The position numbers were made by a program, and so were the translations under genes. Shown here in pieces: positions 10,039 to 18,141 of a stretch of DNA of 41,308 nucleotides (within the stretch, counting starts at the first letter, position 1; the number at the start of each line of letters is the position of its first letter). Origin of the DNA: Anaerolineales bacterium (lineage in GTDB: Bacteria; Chloroflexota; Anaerolineae; Anaerolineales; DRKV01); NCBI GenBank assembly GCA_020061145.1, contig JAGUYX010000113.1:1-41308 (forward strand), read 5' to 3'. A model generated the notes under the pieces. It was given only the letters and a program-made list of their open reading frames with translations. It did not search any database and was not told the origin of the DNA.

Positions 10039-11829
10039 ATGCGTAAGAAGTTTGCAATAGCTGTCCAATTGATGCTGACGCTGGCAATGATCCTTGCCGC
10101 GTGCGGCGCCCCGGCAGCTCCGCAAGCCACGCCTGAGGTCATCAAAGAGACCGTTGTCGTAACCCAGCAAGTGCCCGTGGAGGTCGTTAAGACCGTCGAG
10201 GTCCCAGTCGCACCCTCCGAGTACTCGATAACGGTGCTGAATCCCCAGGGAGCGATCCCGTTCGCCAGTGATCTGGCGCCGCGCCTCGATACCCTGGAGG
10301 GAAAACGTGTGGCCCTGTGGCTTTCCGCGACGCCTGATCATACGTACGCTGGACAGGGAGCGCCGCTGTATGATGAGTTGGCGAAGATGCTGAAAGAAAA
10401 ATTCGCCACCATCGAGATCATCCCTTACACTGATCTTCCCATGAAGTATTCCCCCGCCGATGAGGTTATCGCGGCAATCACCGCGACGGAACCCGATGCA
10501 GTCGTTGTCGCCTTCGGTGGCTGATGAGGGTGCCTTGGAGCGATGGGTTCCATCGCAGTAGAACTGGAAAAACTGGGTATCCCAACAGTAACTCTTTACA
10601 ACGAACGGCATGAGACACGTTTCATGGGTACCGTGTTGGCAAAAGGTTTTGCCGATTATCCGGCAAAGAATTTCGTTGAAATCGATACGCTGACCGAGGA
10701 GGGCGTTCTCGCCCTGGCTCCCCAGGCGTTCGATTTCCTGGTCGCAGGTCTGACAACCTGGGCTCCTCCGTACCTTGAAAAGCAAGGCGATCTGTGGGTT
10801 CCCACCGAATCGGAATTTATCTTCACGGGAGCAGCCTACGCAGAAGCCCTGGAAAACATGAACGAAGCCTTTCTTGCCGATCTCCGCTGGGGTGATGGAT
10901 TACCTTTGGTGCCAGCGACTCGCGAGCGCGTCGACGCCCTTCTGGCTGGCACGGACCTGGCCCCAGACACAGTTATCGGCACCTGGGGTCCGACAGGCGC
11001 TCAGTTCACGGTTGAAAAGATCGCCATCAATGCCGCCATGGCCGGGGCCCAACCCGAGTATATGCCGGTCATCTTAGCCGCCCTCCAGGCGATTACTTCC
11101 GTCAGATGGGATTCCTATGGACCTGTCATGAAGTCGCCGGTCCCCCTGGTGATCGTGAACGGCCCGGTTGCGAAGCAGATCGGTCTGAACTCCTCTGCGA
11201 ACGCGTTCGGTCCCAACCCGAAATACCCTGCAGGCGCGACAATTGGCCGGGCGATCAGCCTGGCGATGCACAACATTCCAGGTAATGGCCGTGGTTTGCT
11301 GCCCTCCAATCTGGCTGGAAATCCTGCAATGTACGCAGGGATGGTGATTGCGGAAGCTGAGGAAACCGAAGCGCTTGCTGAGGGCTGGGATCCGCTGAAC
11401 GTCCAGTTGGGATATGCCCCCGGCACGAACACTGTGACCGTGTTGGGCGTTGACCAGATGGACATGAGCATCTCGGGCTTTGTCGCTAACGTAGCCGCTT
11501 ACGTTGCCCCCGATAAGAACATCTGGCCAAGCTCGGCCGAAGCCTTCGATCAGCGCGTGGCAGGCGTGGTCGCGGTATCGGAAATGATGTTGATCACCGA
11601 CGGCATGATGAAGGGCATCACCAAAGCCGATATCCAGGAGGAGATGTACGAGAAGGCTCGCATCCCGGTGGATGAGTTCATGACGTTGGTTCTCACCGCG
11701 GAAGACGGTAGCGCTGTGGAACCGAACGCATTTATAAGAGAGCTCATTGGCGGTCTTGCTCCGGGAGAGGGCGTGCCGGTTGCAGCTGCGCCAGACAAGT
11801 TTCTGGTGGTAGCCACCGGCGGCCACTGA
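10039..11829 (+). CDS. UGSC-type lipoprotein selenoprotein with tandem UGA (GGUUGC)
   Basis: The track splits this into 10030..10524 and 10543..11829, which are in the same frame and are separated only by two adjacent UGA codons (10522-10527) and five sense codons. Full length is 596 residues. I choose ATG 10039 because AAAGGAG lies 10 nt before it. A lipobox (ILAAC, residues ~18-22) predicts an outward-facing lipoprotein. The site reads VVVAFGGUUGCLGAMGS at residues 155-171, matching the position of the U/C-G-S-C motif in UGSC proteins. Next comes the family-like IAVELEKLGIPTVTLYNE. The C-terminal domain (WGDGLPLVPATRERVDALL onward) is typical of these proteins and ends intact. The chemistry is unknown; the family is thought to be redox active. 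Confidence 0.85.
10540..10556 (+). promoter_or_regulatory. SECIS hairpin of the GGUUGC lipoprotein
   Basis: GCGATGG-GTT-CCATCGC, perfect 7-bp stem (or 6 bp with loop GGGTTCC core). The GG/G apex begins 18 nt after the second UGA. It lies inside the coding frame, as bacterial SECIS elements do. Confidence 0.75.
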
Positions 11830-12016: not shown

Positions 12017-12111
12017 GGGAGTGATTGAGTCCTGGTGGGCTCCTCGGTCTTCAAAACCGCTGTGGGGAGGTGGAAACCTTCCTGGGTGGGTTCGACTCCC
12101 ATTCACTCCCG
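12017..12111 (+). tRNA. selC: tRNA-Sec (UCA anticodon)
   Basis: Acceptor GGGAGTGA/TCACTCCC (8 bp, 12017-12024 with 12103-12110) and G at 12111 as discriminator. CC follows but the final A is not encoded. The D arm has the Sec-specific 6-bp stem GAGTCC/GGGCTC with a 4-nt loop. The anticodon loop CTTCAAA has TCA at 12051-12053. A long variable arm (GGAGG...CCTTCC) and a 5-bp T stem with TTCGACT complete it. The 8+5 and 6-bp D-stem layout is that of bacterial tRNA-Sec and decodes UGA. It explains the in-frame UGAs on both sides. Confidence 0.95.
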
Positions 12112-12150
12112 CCTTTTACGCAGTATATGACAGGATTGCTTTGATAGAAA

Positions 12151-12365
12151 GGAGGTATGCCGGTGCGAAAATTAATCCTCTGCATATGATTCGATTTCAC
12201 CCAACGCAGTGACTGCGTTATTTCTGTACACAGACCGCGATGCTGCACATCCCCGAACCGGCATCCCTCCACGTAGAGAGCGTGCAACCGAAGCAGTTAC
12301 ATACTCCCTGGGGGCTGGTTCCGGCGGCTGGCAGCCGGCCCATGTCAACCAAATGGAGGGAGTAT
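12151..12365 (+). promoter_or_regulatory. Structured leader of yedE with long-range helix, UGA-containing leader ORF and anti-SD helix
   Basis: GGAGG-t-ATGCCGGT (12151-12164) pairs with ACCGGCAT-c-CCTCC (12257-12270): 13 bp around one mismatch. Inside are hairpins AACGCAG-TGA-CTGCGTT (12203-12219) and TCTG-TACA-CAGA. A strong AAAGGAGG precedes ATG 12157/GTG 12163, opening a tiny ORF (MRKLILCI from the GTG) that stops at UGA 12187-12189. The AACGCAG hairpin starts its loop 21 nt after that UGA. Downstream, ATACTCCC (12301-12308) pairs with GGGAGTAT (12358-12365), covering the yedE ribosome-binding site. The parts fit a selenium- or metabolite-responsive leader. The mechanism is not shown. Confidence 0.55.
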
Positions 12366-12370
12366 TTTTC

Positions 12371-13516
12371 ATGTCTGCACATAATCGGTTTTTTGCCTCA
12401 CGCTGGGCAATGATATTGACTGGAGGCGCAATCGGTGCCCTTGCGGCGTTGCTGGTCAAATGGGGAAATCCAGGCAATATGGGGCTCTGTATGGCCTGTT
12501 TCATCCGAGATATTTCTGGAGCCTTGGGACTGCACCGCGCTGCAAGCGTACAATATATCCGTCCTGAGGTGATCGGACTTGTTCTGGGGGCGAGTGCTGC
12601 TGCCATAGGCTTTAAAGAATTCAGAGCACGCGGTGGATCCGCCCCCCTCCTCAGGTTTCTATTTGGCAACCTGGCGATCATTGGCGCCCTGGTGTTTCTG
12701 GGTTGCCCCTGGCGGGCGTATCTGCGATTGAGCGGGGGTGATTGGAATGCCATTCCCGGCATTTTGGGATTGGCCGCCGGAGTCTTTTTAGGGGTCCTGC
12801 TCCTGAAGGCAGGTTTTAGTTTGGGGAGGAACCAGCGTGGACCCGCTCCGATTGGATTCGCTTTTCCCGCCCTGGTGATCCTCCTCCTATTCCTATTGGT
12901 CTTCGCGCCCATGTTCGGACGGGATGCCGATGGCAGACTGGTTGGTCCGATCTTCTTCTCCGAGAATGGGCCGGGTGCGCAGCATGCACCGTTGCTAATC
13001 TCACTCTTTATTGGTCTGGTGATCGGCTTCCTGGCGCAACGTAGCCGTTTCTGCACGATTGCCGGGTTGCGCGATCTGATGCTCATGGGGGATACTCACT
13101 TTGCTAGCGGCATTGTAAGCCTTGTGGGGGTCGCGTTTCTCGCCAACCTTGCCCTGGGCCAGTTCAAACCCGGCTTTGCTGATCAGCCCATTGCCCATAC
13201 CGACGCACTTTGGAATTTCGGCGGTATGGTATTGGCAGGGTTGGCATTTACCTTGGCTGGGGGCTGCCCTGGGAGGCAGCTCATTCTGGCTGGCGAAGGC
13301 GATGGAGACGCGGCCATGTTCGTCTTTGGTCTGCTGACCGGAGCAGCCATCTCCCATAACTTTAACCTGGCAAGTACGCCGGCTGGCCCGAGCCCCTACG
13401 GACCTGCGGCAGTTGTGGGCGGTCTGCTGGTTATTTTGGTTGTTGGCCTGGCGATGCGTGAGCGCTTGGTGGTATCGACGGAGAGTATGCAAGTTACGCA
13501 AGAGGTGAAAGCATGA
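12371..13516 (+). CDS. yedE: YedE-type selenium metabolism membrane protein
   Basis: About 381 residues from ATG 12371 (GGAGGGAG upstream); the track start at 12209 would add a leader that is not membrane-like. About ten hydrophobic segments and family motifs are seen: GNMGLCMACFIRDISGALG near the start, FLGCPWRAYLRL, FLAQRSRFCTIAGLRDLM and GGCPGRQLILAGEGDGDAA. This YeeE/YedE family, when next to yedF and selD, is assigned to transport of selenium (or a sulfur/selenium precursor), with the cysteines as carriers. It overlaps yedF by 4 nt. Its ribosome-binding site can be hidden by the leader helix described above. Confidence 0.9.
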   Translation: MSAHNRFFASRWAMILTGGAIGALAALLVKWGNPGNMGLCMACFIRDISGALGLHRAASVQYIRPEVIGLVLGASAAAIGFKEFRARGGSAPLLRFLFGNLAIIGALVFLGCPWRAYLRLSGGDWNAIPGILGLAAGVFLGVLLLKAGFSLGRNQRGPAPIGFAFPALVILLLFLLVFAPMFGRDADGRLVGPIFFSENGPGAQHAPLLISLFIGLVIGFLAQRSRFCTIAGLRDLMLMGDTHFASGIVSLVGVAFLANLALGQFKPGFADQPIAHTDALWNFGGMVLAGLAFTLAGGCPGRQLILAGEGDGDAAMFVFGLLTGAAISHNFNLASTPAGPSPYGPAAVVGGLLVILVVGLAMRERLVVSTESMQVTQEVKA

Positions 13517-13743
13517 ACCAGACACCCGAATCACTTCTCGTAGACGCCCGGGGGCTGAGCTGCCCGCAACCGGCAATCCTCACGCGCCAGGCGATCAGCC
13601 AGGCGGCTGGTAGGGTGCTCGAGATTCTCGTGGATGCAATAGCACAGCGCGATAACGTGATCCGCGTGGCGGTGAAAGAAGGCTGGTCGGCAGTCCCAGA
13701 AGAGACAGCCGATGGTCGGATACGCATAAGATTGACGAAGTAG
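13513..13743 (+). CDS. yedF: YedF, TusA-like selenium metabolism protein
   Basis: 76 residues with the TusA/SirA signature LVDARGLSCPQPAILTRQAI, where the CPxP cysteine normally carries a persulfide. This short form covers only the TusA domain, without the C-terminal DsrE-like extension of some YedF proteins. It overlaps yedE by 4 nt and is followed by the aminotransferase after 6 nt. In this setting it probably relays selenium or sulfur toward SelD. Confidence 0.85.
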   Translation: MNQTPESLLVDARGLSCPQPAILTRQAISQAAGRVLEILVDAIAQRDNVIRVAVKEGWSAVPEETADGRIRIRLTK

Positions 13744-13749
13744 GCAGAT

Positions 13750-14916
13750 TTGGATTCAAGTCTGATTTATCTGGATAACGCCGCCACCTCCTGGCCGAAA
13801 CCGCCGGAGGTTGTTCAGGCAATGGCCAGCTTCATCGCAGAGAGCGGTGGAAATCCGGGGCGTTCTGGTCACCGTCTGTCTCTGGCGGCTGGCAGAGTAG
13901 TGTACCAGGCGAGGGAAGAACTGGCCGACTTCTTCGGGTTAGATGACCCTCTCCGTTTAGTGTTCACCGCCAATGTGACCGAGGCCATCAACCTGGCGCT
14001 CTATGGGCTACTGCGCTCTGGTGATCACGTTATTGCCAGCAGTATGGAACATAACGCCGTCATGCGCCCTCTCAGGCACCTGCAGCGTGAAGGCGTACAT
14101 CTGAGCTTCGCCCCCTGCGGGATGGATGGCCATGTTTCCTTAGCGCATGTTGAAAAACTGCTCAAAACCCAAACCCGCCTGGTTGTGGTCAACCACGCTT
14201 CCAATGTAACCGGAACCATTCAGCCCATTGCAGAAATCGGCGCGCTCTGCCGAGAACACAACACTCTCTTCCTGGTTGACGCGGCTCAGACTGCGGGTGT
14301 ACTGCCGATCAACATCGAAGAGCTTCAAATCGACCTGCTCGCCTTTACCGGTCATAAGGGGTTACTGGGACCAACCGGTACTGGTGGATTGCTCCTGGGT
14401 GAGCGGGTGCCGTTCGAGGAGATGAAGCTGCTGGTGCGGGGTGGAACGGGAAGCCGGTCGGAATACGAGGAGCAGCCTGAGTTCCTGCCTGATCGCTTTG
14501 AAAGTGGCACCCCCAATTCGATCGGACTGGCCGGCCTTTTGGCAGGCCTTCAATTTATCAAGTCACACGCGCTGGATGCCTTACGCGAACAGGAAACTTC
14601 TCAGTTAGCCCGCTTGATCATAGGGCTGAGTAATCTCCCAAACGTCCGGCTGTTTGGCCCGCGCGATCCATCCCGACAGGTACCCGTGGTCTCTTTCACG
14701 CTCGATGGCATGCGGGTATCGGATATCGGTTTTCGACTGGATGAAGAATATGGCATCCTGTGCCGGCCTGGCTTGCAATGTTCCCCTGCTGCTCATCGTA
14801 CCTTAGGGACTTTCCCGCATGGAACGGTCCGGCTCTCTCCAGGTCCATTCACAAAAGATCGTGAAATTGAGAGCGTGCTCGAGGCGGTTGAGAGGTTATC
14901 GGCGGAATTACTATGA
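13750..14916 (+). CDS. Class V aminotransferase, cysteine desulfurase-like (EF2568 type)
   Basis: 388 residues: LIYLDNAATSWPKPPEVVQAM at the start, FTANVTEAINLALYGLL, VDAAQTAGVLPI, FTGHKGLLGPTGTGGLL with the PLP lysine, and CRPGLQCSPAAHRTLG with the catalytic-loop cysteine. This is the desulfurase-like family that habitually sits beside selD, yedF and DUF3343 in selenium users. It probably frees selenium or sulfur for SelD. No ATG is present at the start; TTG 13750 is the likely start, only 6 nt after yedF, so translation may be coupled. It overlaps the next gene by 4 nt. Confidence 0.9.
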   Translation: MDSSLIYLDNAATSWPKPPEVVQAMASFIAESGGNPGRSGHRLSLAAGRVVYQAREELADFFGLDDPLRLVFTANVTEAINLALYGLLRSGDHVIASSMEHNAVMRPLRHLQREGVHLSFAPCGMDGHVSLAHVEKLLKTQTRLVVVNHASNVTGTIQPIAEIGALCREHNTLFLVDAAQTAGVLPINIEELQIDLLAFTGHKGLLGPTGTGGLLLGERVPFEEMKLLVRGGTGSRSEYEEQPEFLPDRFESGTPNSIGLAGLLAGLQFIKSHALDALREQETSQLARLIIGLSNLPNVRLFGPRDPSRQVPVVSFTLDGMRVSDIGFRLDEEYGILCRPGLQCSPAAHRTLGTFPHGTVRLSPGPFTKDREIESVLEAVERLSAELL

Positions 14917-15140
14917 GTCAGTACGGAGTTGTATTGTTCTCGGGTACCCAGGCAGCCTTACGAGCTGAAAAACTGCTTGAGAGGGTTGGGCAGGTGGTGA
15001 AGTTGATTCCCACTCCCCGGCACTTGAGCTCCGATTGCGGGGTTGCGCTTCGTTTTTCCTGGGCGGAACAGAACGAAGTGGTCAACACGTTAGATCGGGC
15101 CAGGCTCGCCTATGAGACTATCGCTATTCTTGATGGGTAG
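14913..15140 (+). CDS. DUF3343 putative Se/S carrier protein
   Basis: 75 residues (MSQYGVVLFSGTQAALRAEK, then LIPTPRHLSSDCGVALRFSW). The single cysteine in the SSDCG motif is the conserved residue of DUF3343, a small protein regularly found with yedF and the EF2568-type aminotransferase. It is thought to carry sulfur or selenium, but this is from genomic context. It overlaps the aminotransferase by 4 nt (ATGA), and selD follows after 11 nt. Confidence 0.85.
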   Translation: MSQYGVVLFSGTQAALRAEKLLERVGQVVKLIPTPRHLSSDCGVALRFSWAEQNEVVNTLDRARLAYETIAILDG

Positions 15141-15151
15141 GTGGCATCGAA

Positions 15152-16201
15152 GTGCTAAAAACAACCATTCGTCTCACCGAACTCTCCTCCTGTGCGGGTT
15201 GAGCATCTAAGCTGAGCCCAGAGGCTCTGGCGCAGGTGCTGCGCCCTTTGCGTGCCATGTTCCAGCCCCAGGATTGTCCCGATCTGATGGTCGGCATTGG
15301 TTGTCTGGATGATGCCGCCGTGTATCGCTTGGACAGTGAACGGGCCCTGATCTTCACGACAGATTTTTTCACGCCGGTGGTGGATGATCCGTATGACTAT
15401 GGAGCCATTGCCGCAGCCAATGCCCTTTCTGACGTGTACGCCATGGGCGGAGCGCCGTTGCTGGCGCTAAACCTGGCCGCGTTTCCAGCGCGCCTGCCGG
15501 CTGAGATCCTTGGGCAGGTGTTGATGGGAATGGCGGATATGGTCAAACAGGCTGGGGCTGTGGTGGCTGGAGGCCATACGATCCAGGACGAAGAGCCAAA
15601 AGTCGGCTTGTGCGTGGCTGGGATGGTCCACCCGGACAAGCTGCTCACCAAGGGAGGTGTGCAGCCTGGCGATCAGCTAGTGTTAACCAAGCCTCTTGGG
15701 ACAGGCCTTATTACCACGGCTGCCAAAATGGATCTGGCGGATCGGGAGGATGTCGATGAGGCAATCCAGTGGATGAGACGGCTTAACAGAGCTGCCGGGA
15801 AAACCGCAGCGGACCTGGACTTGCGAGGCGGTACCGATGTCACCGGATTCGGCCTGTTGGGTCATGCCTGGGAAATGGCAGAAGCGTCGCGAGTAACCCT
15901 TAAGGTTTTTTTTGAGGCAGTGCCGTTCATGAACGGTGTTGTCCGTTATGCCGACCAAGGGCTGTTCCCCGGCGGAACGGCATCGAATTATACGGCTTAT
16001 AGCAAACGGATCCATTTTGCAGAATATTTGAATGAGGATCAAAAGATGCTGCTGTTTGATGCGCAAACAAGCGGAGGACTACTCTTGGCCGTGCCACAGG
16101 AGAAGATGGGGGAGTTCTCCAATATGATGGAATTCCATGGCGAAAAGTGTTGGATCATCGGTGAGGCGGTGGGCAGGGAAGCCGGAATTCAGGTCATCTG
16201 A
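15152..16201 (+). CDS. selD: Selenophosphate synthetase, itself a selenoprotein
   Basis: The track begins only at 15236. The frame extends upstream through UGA 15200-15202 to GTG 15152, giving 349 residues. The N-terminus TELSSCAGUASKLSPEALAQVL aligns with the SelD active-site segment, with Sec17 at the catalytic Cys/Sec position and the conserved Lys20. Later motifs are intact: GIGCLDDAAVYRLD, TTDFFTPVVDDPYDYGAIAAANALSDVYAMGG, AGGHTIQDEEPKVGL, GTDVTGFGLLGHAWEMAE and DAQTSGGLLLAVP. SelD makes selenophosphate from selenide and ATP. A Sec in SelD means the enzyme depends on its own product. selB follows after 26 nt. Confidence 0.93.
15218..15230 (+). promoter_or_regulatory. SECIS hairpin of selD
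   Basis: CCAGA-GGC-TCTGG, 5-bp stem with loop GGC. The GG lies 21-22 nt after UGA 15200-15202. An overlapping GAGCC/GGCTC pairing is possible as an alternative. Confidence 0.65.
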
Positions 16202-16227: not shown

Positions 16228-18141
16228 ATGTATGTAGTCGGTACAGCCGGTCATGTCGATCATGGAAAGTCGACGTTGGTGCGGGCATTGACTGGGATCG
16301 ACCCCGACCGTTTGAAAGAAGAAAAAGAGCGCGAGATGACGATCGATTTGGGGTTTGCCTGGCTGGAACTGCCCAGTGGTCAGGAAGTCTCGATCGTTGA
16401 CGTTCCCGGGCACGAAGACTTCATTAAAAACATGCTGGCCGGGGTAGGGGGGATCGACGCTGTACTGCTGACGGTAGCTGCGGATGAGGCGATCATGCCT
16501 CAGACGCGCGAACATGTGGCGATTCTCGATCTCCTGGAGGTCAAGGCTGGCCTGGTTGTGTTGACAAAAGCCGACATGGTGCCTGACGAGGAATGGTTGG
16601 AGTTGGTCAAAATGGATGTGGCGAGTCTGCTGGAGAAAACCTCACTGGCAGGCGCCCCGATTGTGTTGGTATCCTCCAAGACCGGGAAAGGTCTGATCGA
16701 TCTGGAAGACAACCTCGATGCCCTTCTCAAGAAAACCCCACCACGCCGAGACTTCAACAGGCCGCGCCTATCTATTGATCGAATCTTTACAAAGCCCGGA
16801 TTTGGGACTATCGTCACCGGGACGCTGATTGATGGTCGTTTTTGTGTGGGAGATGAAATCGAGATCCAGCCGAAAGGGTTGAAGGGGCGAATCCGCGGGC
16901 TTCAAACCCACAAAAACAAAGTGGAAGTGGCCACTCCTGGCAGCCGAGTCGCGATCAACCTGACCGGCGTGAATCTGGAAAATCTCAGCCGGGGAGACGT
17001 TGTCACTCATCGCGGTTGGTTGAGCGGTACGGTTTTAGTGGATGCCCGCATCCGGGTTCTGGAGGACTTTGAACTGGCGCTGAGGCATGACATGGAAATC
17101 GAGATCTTCTCCGGGGCCTCACAGGTTTTGGGTCATGCCCGGGTGCTCGGCGCGGATGAAATTCGTCCTGGAGAATTAGGCTGGGTCCAGATCCGCCTGG
17201 TTGATCCAATTGCGTTGGTCAAAGGGGATAGGCTGATCCTTCGCCAGCCCTCTCCAAGCCGGACGATCGGCGGAGGAGTAGTTATCGATCCGCATCCCTA
17301 CCGCAAGCACCGCCGTTACCACGAAGAGGTCATCCGCCATTTAGGGGCAATGGCATCGGATACGCCTGAGGAAATCTTGCTGGCGACGCTGATGAAACAG
17401 GAGCCTATCTCAGCGCGGCTGGCCGTCCAACGCAGCCAGCTTGATTTGGAAGCAGCAGGAAGTGCGTTGTCTAAGCTGCTGGCAGAAGGATTGGTCTATG
17501 TGCTAAATAGCGACACTTCCGATCCTGGCAAGCTTGTTTCTGGCTCTTCCAACCTGATTTCCGCGGAAGGTTTCAATCGATTTGTTGAGCGGATCCGACA
17601 GGTCCTTTCGGAGTATCATACTGCGTTCCCGCTCCGCCTCGGGTTGCCCAGAGAAGAGTTGAACAGCCGCCTGGGTTTGGACCGTCAATTGGTCAATACC
17701 ATCGTAGAGCGTGCCGTGAAGCTGGGCTCGATTAGGGCTGTAGGGGGAAGCCTTTCCTTACCGGGGCACAAAGTGCTATTTTCTCCTGAACAACAGAGGC
17801 AAATTAACCAGGCTTTGGAGGTTTTCCGTCAGGCGCCTTTCACCCCGCCCCCTACAAGAGAGGTAGCATCGCTGATTGGAACAGAGGTCCTCTTTGCGCT
17901 CCTTGAGCAGGGGTGCTTGACCCAGGTGAGTAAGGATGTCGTTTTCATGACTGATACCTACAACCGCATCATCGAACAGGTTGTACAACACCTGAAGGAA
18001 CAAGGTACGATCACGATAGCGGAGGCGCGCGATCTCTTCAATACCAGCCGGAAATATACCCAGGCAATCCTCGAGCACATGGACGAAAAACGGATTACCA
18101 AGCGCCTGGGTGATAACCGGATATTACGACAAATGACTTAG
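16228..18141 (+). CDS. selB: Selenocysteine-specific elongation factor SelB
   Basis: 637 residues. The GTPase domain has [20 protein letters not shown] (P-loop), [15 protein letters not shown] (switch I), [20 protein letters not shown] (switch II) and LTKADM (base-binding). EF-Tu-like domains II and III follow to about residue 340, including [19 protein letters not shown]. The C-terminal half (about 380-637) is the winged-helix array that binds SECIS RNA; it ends [21 protein letters not shown]. It delivers Sec-tRNA to UGA codons marked by a SECIS. GGAAGGAGG precedes the ATG. It ends the selenium operon. Confidence 0.96.

Follow-up and report, generated by a model that had tools for sequence, protein, structure and literature searches.

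The selenium operon studied here is preceded by a leader RNA that we interpret, with good confidence, as a leader-peptide attenuator in which a recoded UGA codon is the sensor of Sec-tRNA. Comparison of related sequences supports the mini-ORF, the exclusive use of UGA, the hairpin, the open frame with its positioned stop and three alternating helices. Sec insertion is inferred, and there are no selenium-response or SelB-binding data. The leader is probably the first RNA selenium sensor to act through conditional stop-codon recoding. Its regulon would comprise yedE, selD, Sec lyase, yedF and a putative selenate transporter, controlled by attenuation of transcription or translation in at least two phyla (Chloroflexota and Synergistota).

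The selenium operon and its leader

The stretch of DNA analysed (the window) is 41,308 nucleotides long and comes from a Chloroflexota (Anaerolineae) assembly. The features of the leader and operon described below are on the + strand. The tRNA-Sec gene selC (12017–12110; Rfam RF01852, 73.5 bits; ARAGORN) is followed about 40 nt downstream by the leader and then by yedE, a putative selenium transporter (12371–13516; TIGR04112, 5e-141). Next come a yedF/TusA-like sulfurtransferase (13513–13743; profile evidence), a cysteine desulfurase/Sec-lyase-like gene (13750–14916; TIGR01977, 8.8e-140), a Se/S carrier protein (14913–15140; PF11823 (DUF3343), 1.6e-18), selD with Sec at codon 17 (15152–16201, UGA at 15200–15202; profile and sequence) and selB (16228–18141; TIGR00475, 1e-105). 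A known Rfam family or riboswitch was considered and rejected, as only tRNA-Sec scored above the gathering score in the window and 12 relatives.

The mini-ORF has the Shine–Dalgarno (SD) motif AGGAGG (12150–12155), which doubles as the 5' strand of helix 1:2. The GTG at 12163 lies 7 nt from this SD, a better spacing than that of the ATG at 12157 (1 nt). With the UGA read as Sec, which is inferred, the frame from the GTG (12163–12276) translates as VRKLILCI-U-FDFTQRSDCVISVHRPRCCTSPNRHPST*. The earlier note, made from the sequence of the window alone, had placed a UGA at codon 9 from the GTG and a SECIS-spaced hairpin after it. The UGA, our proposed sensor codon, is at 12187–12189, and the hairpin (AACGCAG-UGA-CUGCGUU, 7 bp) occupies 12203–12219, 13 nt downstream. 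After the UGA there are 28 open codons and then a TAG (12274–12276), slightly beyond the 3' strand of a long-range helix.

This helix, described in the earlier note as 13 bp pairing the mini-ORF SD with a distant strand, joins region 1 (X, 12151–12164) to region 2 (W, 12257–12270, where the read-through ORF ends). It has 13 of 14 positions paired and masks the mini-ORF SD. The separate helix said to hide the yedE SD was also recovered, with 9 bp instead of the 8 claimed: the anti-SD strand Y (AUACUCCCU, 12301–12309) pairs with strand Z (AGGGAGUAU, 12357–12365), which lies over the yedE SD (GGAGGGAG, 12355–12362) and is followed by UUUUU. Both helices are part of the minimum-energy structure of the leader, which is more stable than its shuffles (z = -3.1 for 277 nt and -3.5 for the enclosed domain). 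Chance structure was rejected on this comparison and on conservation in relatives. Duplex tests and folding also gave W an alternative partner, region 3 (the antisequestor, approximately 12310–12338), and this pairing is present in the minimum-energy structure of the leader prior to transcription of the yedE SD. The second partner for W, the open frame after the UGA and the presence of selC just upstream go beyond the earlier note.

The leaders of relatives are split into two architectures. In type A leaders a terminator and an antiterminator exclude each other; in type B leaders the yedE SD is sequestered. The window leader is of type B, its SD-blocking helix and the following UUUUU standing in place of the terminator. 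An intrinsic terminator is present in 35 of 36 type A leaders.

Two observations concern other selenium-related loci. A UGSC-family protein (PF24696; 10030–11829 of the window) has two adjacent in-frame UGAs (10522–10527, ..AFGG-U-U-GCLGA..) and is a possible tandem-Sec selenoprotein; a hairpin in its gene (GCGATGG-GTT-CCATCGC, 7 bp, loop GUU), 12 nt after the UGA, has the same geometry as those of the leaders. The assembly also encodes another tRNA-Sec (70.3 bits) as well as another SelB, 50% identical (G000:C295 (L002) and G000:C41). This tRNA gene sits between glutamine-synthetase-like and membrane-protease-like ORFs, and either there are two Sec systems per cell or the assembly is mixed.

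Conservation of the mini-ORF, hairpin and read-through frame

We searched for yedE across the order, class and phylum and compared the upstream regions in gene orientation. The unit found in relatives consists of an SD, a start codon, usually 7–10 codons, a UGA, a hairpin about 10–14 nt further on and at least 18 open codons. Under a strict definition (SD, start, codons, UGA, hairpin and open frame), it is present in 44 of the 77 yedE upstream regions. In the same 77 regions, this definition gave no match with UAA, none with UAG and none on the reverse strand; shuffles averaged 0.5. A looser reading yields about 64 leaders, mostly from Anaerolineae, with a few from other Chloroflexota and some from Synergistota; among the carriers are Dehalococcoidia (L099, L105) and four Synergistota loci (L123, L143, L148, L159). 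None of the yedE loci examined in deltaproteobacteria, spirochaetes or firmicutes is preceded by the leader. In some genomes that use Sec, yedE lacks it (G083, G119, L033, L035, L037); for G083 and G119, its absence near yedE was judged on the upstream strip.

The design of start codon and SD is conserved in the approximately 64 leaders, as is the layout of start, UGA, open frame and stop, the window type included; that the mini-ORF is translated is inferred from this conservation. The first stop is UGA in every related leader found, and the stops that end the read-through frame are of all three kinds (TGA 31, TAG 23, TAA 8). The residues before the UGA are often HRRT (T at -1 in 40/64, R at -2 in 36/64), kept through several synonymous codons (for Arg, AGG and AGA are among them). 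This common ending would suit an attenuator that senses the charging of His, Arg and Thr tRNAs, or the rate of translation, with the UGA as an ordinary stop. We regard that explanation as very doubtful: it has to contend with the complete absence of UAA and UAG, the conserved SECIS spacing, the presence of SelB in nearly all carriers and the selenium genes downstream, and the window peptide itself lacks HRRT.

The HRRT codons (-4 to -1) overlap region 1 of type A leaders, and the nascent peptide could have a role in the choice between termination and Sec insertion. Two groups of leaders (L039/L041/L043/L045 and L077/L081) have a doubled UGA-x-UGA. In these codons (UGA-UUA-UGA and UGA-AUU-UGA) the second UGA is at the canonical SECIS distance, and the selenium response is possibly steeper. 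One leader (L036) has a very short ORF, MNRRT-UGA, whose read-through frame extends into yedE.

The published criteria for bacterial SECIS elements (bSECIS) include a stem of 4–16 bp, a distance of 16–37 nt from UGA to loop and a minimum free energy (MFE) of at most -7.5 kcal/mol (PMC13188914). Every criterion is satisfied by 48 of the 64 leader hairpins. The window hairpin (7 bp, 20 nt from UGA to loop) satisfies those on stem and distance and narrowly misses only the energy limit, at -7.2 kcal/mol for the bare hairpin. Its loop is UGA and not GG, as the earlier note had pointed out, and this is atypical: the loop is GGUC, GGUU or GGC in most relatives, many having one of the first two. In an alignment of 18 type A leaders, two-sided changes occur at 6/7 pairs of the SECIS stem, and 100% of the cells are paired. 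SelB binding and Sec insertion at this hairpin remain inferences, as there are no binding or translation data.

The conserved stem and loop are also compatible with a simpler switch, in which SelB and Sec-tRNA bind the hairpin and block expression directly, with no need for read-through, a mode of control reported in E. coli for the leader of selAB. Such a switch would leave the start codon, SD, pre-UGA codons, open frame and positioned second stop unexplained, and we consider a leader of the selAB type, acting by SelB binding only, improbable because the read-through frame is conserved. In type A leaders, the in-frame read-through stop lies 20–35 nt before the terminator in 33/35 cases; the first stops of the two other frames fall at that distance in 0/35 and 2/35. 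On this comparative evidence, read-through of the UGA is under selection. A frame of at least 18 open codons might instead encode a functional small selenoprotein, an idea to which we give hardly any credence: the sequence after the UGA is variable save where it forms the hairpin or strand W, and length and sequence drift while the position of the stop relative to the terminator stays.

The leader is associated with selenium genes beyond yedE. SelB is present in 50 of the 52 class and phylum genomes searched, most of which carry the leader. In the order set, SelB or tRNA-Sec was found in 14/14 leader carriers, and neither is present in 5/7 of the yedE genomes that have no leader. A covariance model of type A leaders (R1), run over 199 class genomes, matched leaders before selD (L175), Sec lyase (L186), yedF/DsrE (L192) and a putative selenate ABC transporter (L193; TIGR04553, 5.5e-107). 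SelB is encoded in 7/8 genomes whose R1 matches had been missed by the yedE search. The model detects neither the window leader nor the other type B leaders on which it was run.

Three further R1 matches or leaders stand apart. L194 is probably a false match, as it has no UGA mini-ORF. L187, upstream of a Sec lyase, retains the hairpin and terminator and has a UGA 16 nt upstream of the hairpin, with no clear in-frame UGA mini-ORF. L173 heads a CbiR-like TIM-barrel gene (downstream of 1696) and an aminoethylphosphonate-type ABC substrate-binding gene, which are candidates for unrecognized selenium-uptake genes.

The earlier note had proposed that read-through or stopping at the UGA remodels the leader and so sets expression by Sec-tRNA level. 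This is the best explanation, since UGA alone serves as the first stop, the hairpin, frame and second stop are conserved, nearly all carriers have SelB, and the leader precedes other selenium operons. It is not backed by selenium-response data, and the sign of the response is unsettled for type B.

Alternating helices and the direction of the proposed switch

Three pairings characterize each architecture. In type A, W can bind either the last codons ahead of the UGA or, as the antiterminator, the 5' half of the terminator; the terminator itself is formed by T5 and T3. In type B, W has as its two partners the mini-ORF SD and the region just past the read-through stop, and the anti-SD pairs with the yedE SD. 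These pairings were evaluated by an alignment-free permutation test in which the duplex formed by a leader's own strands is compared with duplexes formed with strands from other leaders. Foreign strands did as well as own strands in 0/20,000 permutations for X–W, for Y–Z and for W–T5, and in 0/2,000 for the alternate helices; most other region pairs were not significant in this test. In the 18 aligned type A leaders, two-sided changes were observed in 16/19 SECIS and terminator pairs and at 8/9 antiterminator pairs (0/500 shuffles in each case), and the antiterminator and terminator occupy the same alignment columns. Both helices of the earlier note co-vary strongly in homologues; a lack of compensatory changes, which would have counted against the switch, was not what we found. 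The leaders are related by descent and the permutation counts are not independent events, so the safeguard is the breadth of the pattern over two phyla and two architectures.

The proposed mechanism is as follows. Ribosomes would initiate at the mini-ORF and arrive at the UGA ahead of the SECIS-like hairpin. When SelB and Sec-tRNA(Sec) are abundant, the UGA would be read as Sec and the ribosome would continue for 18–36 codons in most leaders, to the stop beside region 2. There it would melt or cover region 2, and region 3 would therefore pair with region 4, forming the intrinsic terminator (type A) or the SD-blocking helix (type B, as in the window); the selenium operon would be shut off. When Sec-tRNA is scarce, the ribosome would pause or stop at the UGA, allowing helix 2:3 (antiterminator or antisequestor) to form and the operon to be expressed. 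Without translation, region 1 would pair with region 2. RF2 may, as a counterpoint, release ribosomes at the UGA instead of letting them pause.

The sign of this switch, off when selenium is replete, is inferred. For type A it is well argued on modelling grounds: folding with ribosome footprints gave a mean of 4.5 terminator pairs with the ribosome at the UGA and 8.7 with the ribosome at the read-through stop (p = 6e-5). The weaker terminator in the former case predicts that, in the manner of trp attenuation, the operon is off under plentiful Sec-tRNA.

For type B, the window included, the same sign has only weak support and is unresolved. Equilibrium folding of type B leaders with ribosome footprints gave no clear direction (p = 0.69). 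In many of them no more than about 10 nt lie between the read-through stop and the start of Y, which is then inside the ribosome footprint; a ribosome that has read through would mask the anti-SD strand too, a point in favour of the opposite sign. A ribosome between W and Y would then expose both SDs, and selenium sufficiency would switch the window operon on; in the model, placing a ribosome at the stop raises the accessibility of the yedE SD from 0.21 to 0.38. We hold this inversion to be possible but unlikely. The antisequestor between W and Y or the middle region is strong (the 0/2,000 above) and consistent with the logic of type A; the Y strand of the window begins 24 nt past the stop, and the Y–Z helix survives a ribosome there; and opposite signs would be odd, since types A and B both head yedE. 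We prefer the off-when-replete sign for type B as well, an inference from the strong conservation of the antisequestor and the 24 nt that separate the stop from the anti-SD strand of the window.

Significance and comparison with known systems

No Sec-coding leader peptide or bacterial selenium attenuator was found in open-licence PMC papers; a description elsewhere is not excluded. Very probably, the leader is a switch not described before that senses whether selenium suffices for making selenocysteine. How bacteria sense their selenium status is largely open, and reviews list candidate selenium transporters and a LysR-type regulator, a high-affinity uptake system being described as unidentified (PMC5322559, PMC9312934). 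If our interpretation is true, the end product, Sec-tRNA, is read out directly within the mRNA of the genes for uptake and synthesis, and the second meaning of a stop codon is, in a natural case, the signal itself. The leader supports a role of YedE and of the TIGR04553 transporter in selenium supply, and it offers a sequence signature for locating selenium genes, unknown transporters included.

Like the trp and his attenuators of E. coli, the leaders combine a short ORF containing a sensor codon with mutually exclusive 1:2, 2:3 and 3:4 helices and, in type A, a terminator and antiterminator. In trp and his the sensors are sense codons; here a stop codon, single or sometimes doubled, would be recoded to serve as the sensor, read by SelB and Sec-tRNA with a SECIS-like hairpin. 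A ribosome would reach the second stop only by passing the first, and the window type ends in an SD-blocking helix. The prfB (RF2) frameshift is a recoding-based sensor whose signal, like that proposed for the leaders, is how efficiently a stop codon is decoded. Unlike in prfB, the signal in the leaders would be the supply of Sec-tRNA, and the output the folding of the leader RNA and not a recoded product.

The bSECIS elements of bacterial selenoprotein genes share with the leaders a UGA and a hairpin at the same spacing (PMC13188914). Unlike them, the leader hairpin lies within an ORF of about 40 codons that encodes no conserved protein. The E. coli selAB leader resembles the leaders described here in placing a SECIS-like RNA ahead of selenium genes under selenium control. 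It was reportedly found by Thanbichler and Boeck in 2002 to be controlled through the binding of SelB, with no mini-ORF that codes for Sec. In our leaders, by contrast, the UGA, the frame and the second stop are conserved. PMC8124441 cites Thanbichler and Boeck 2002 for the SECIS-like element of selAB. SelB control of selAB is the nearest precedent; we class the leader reported here as a ribosome-mediated attenuator in which the sensor is a recoded stop.
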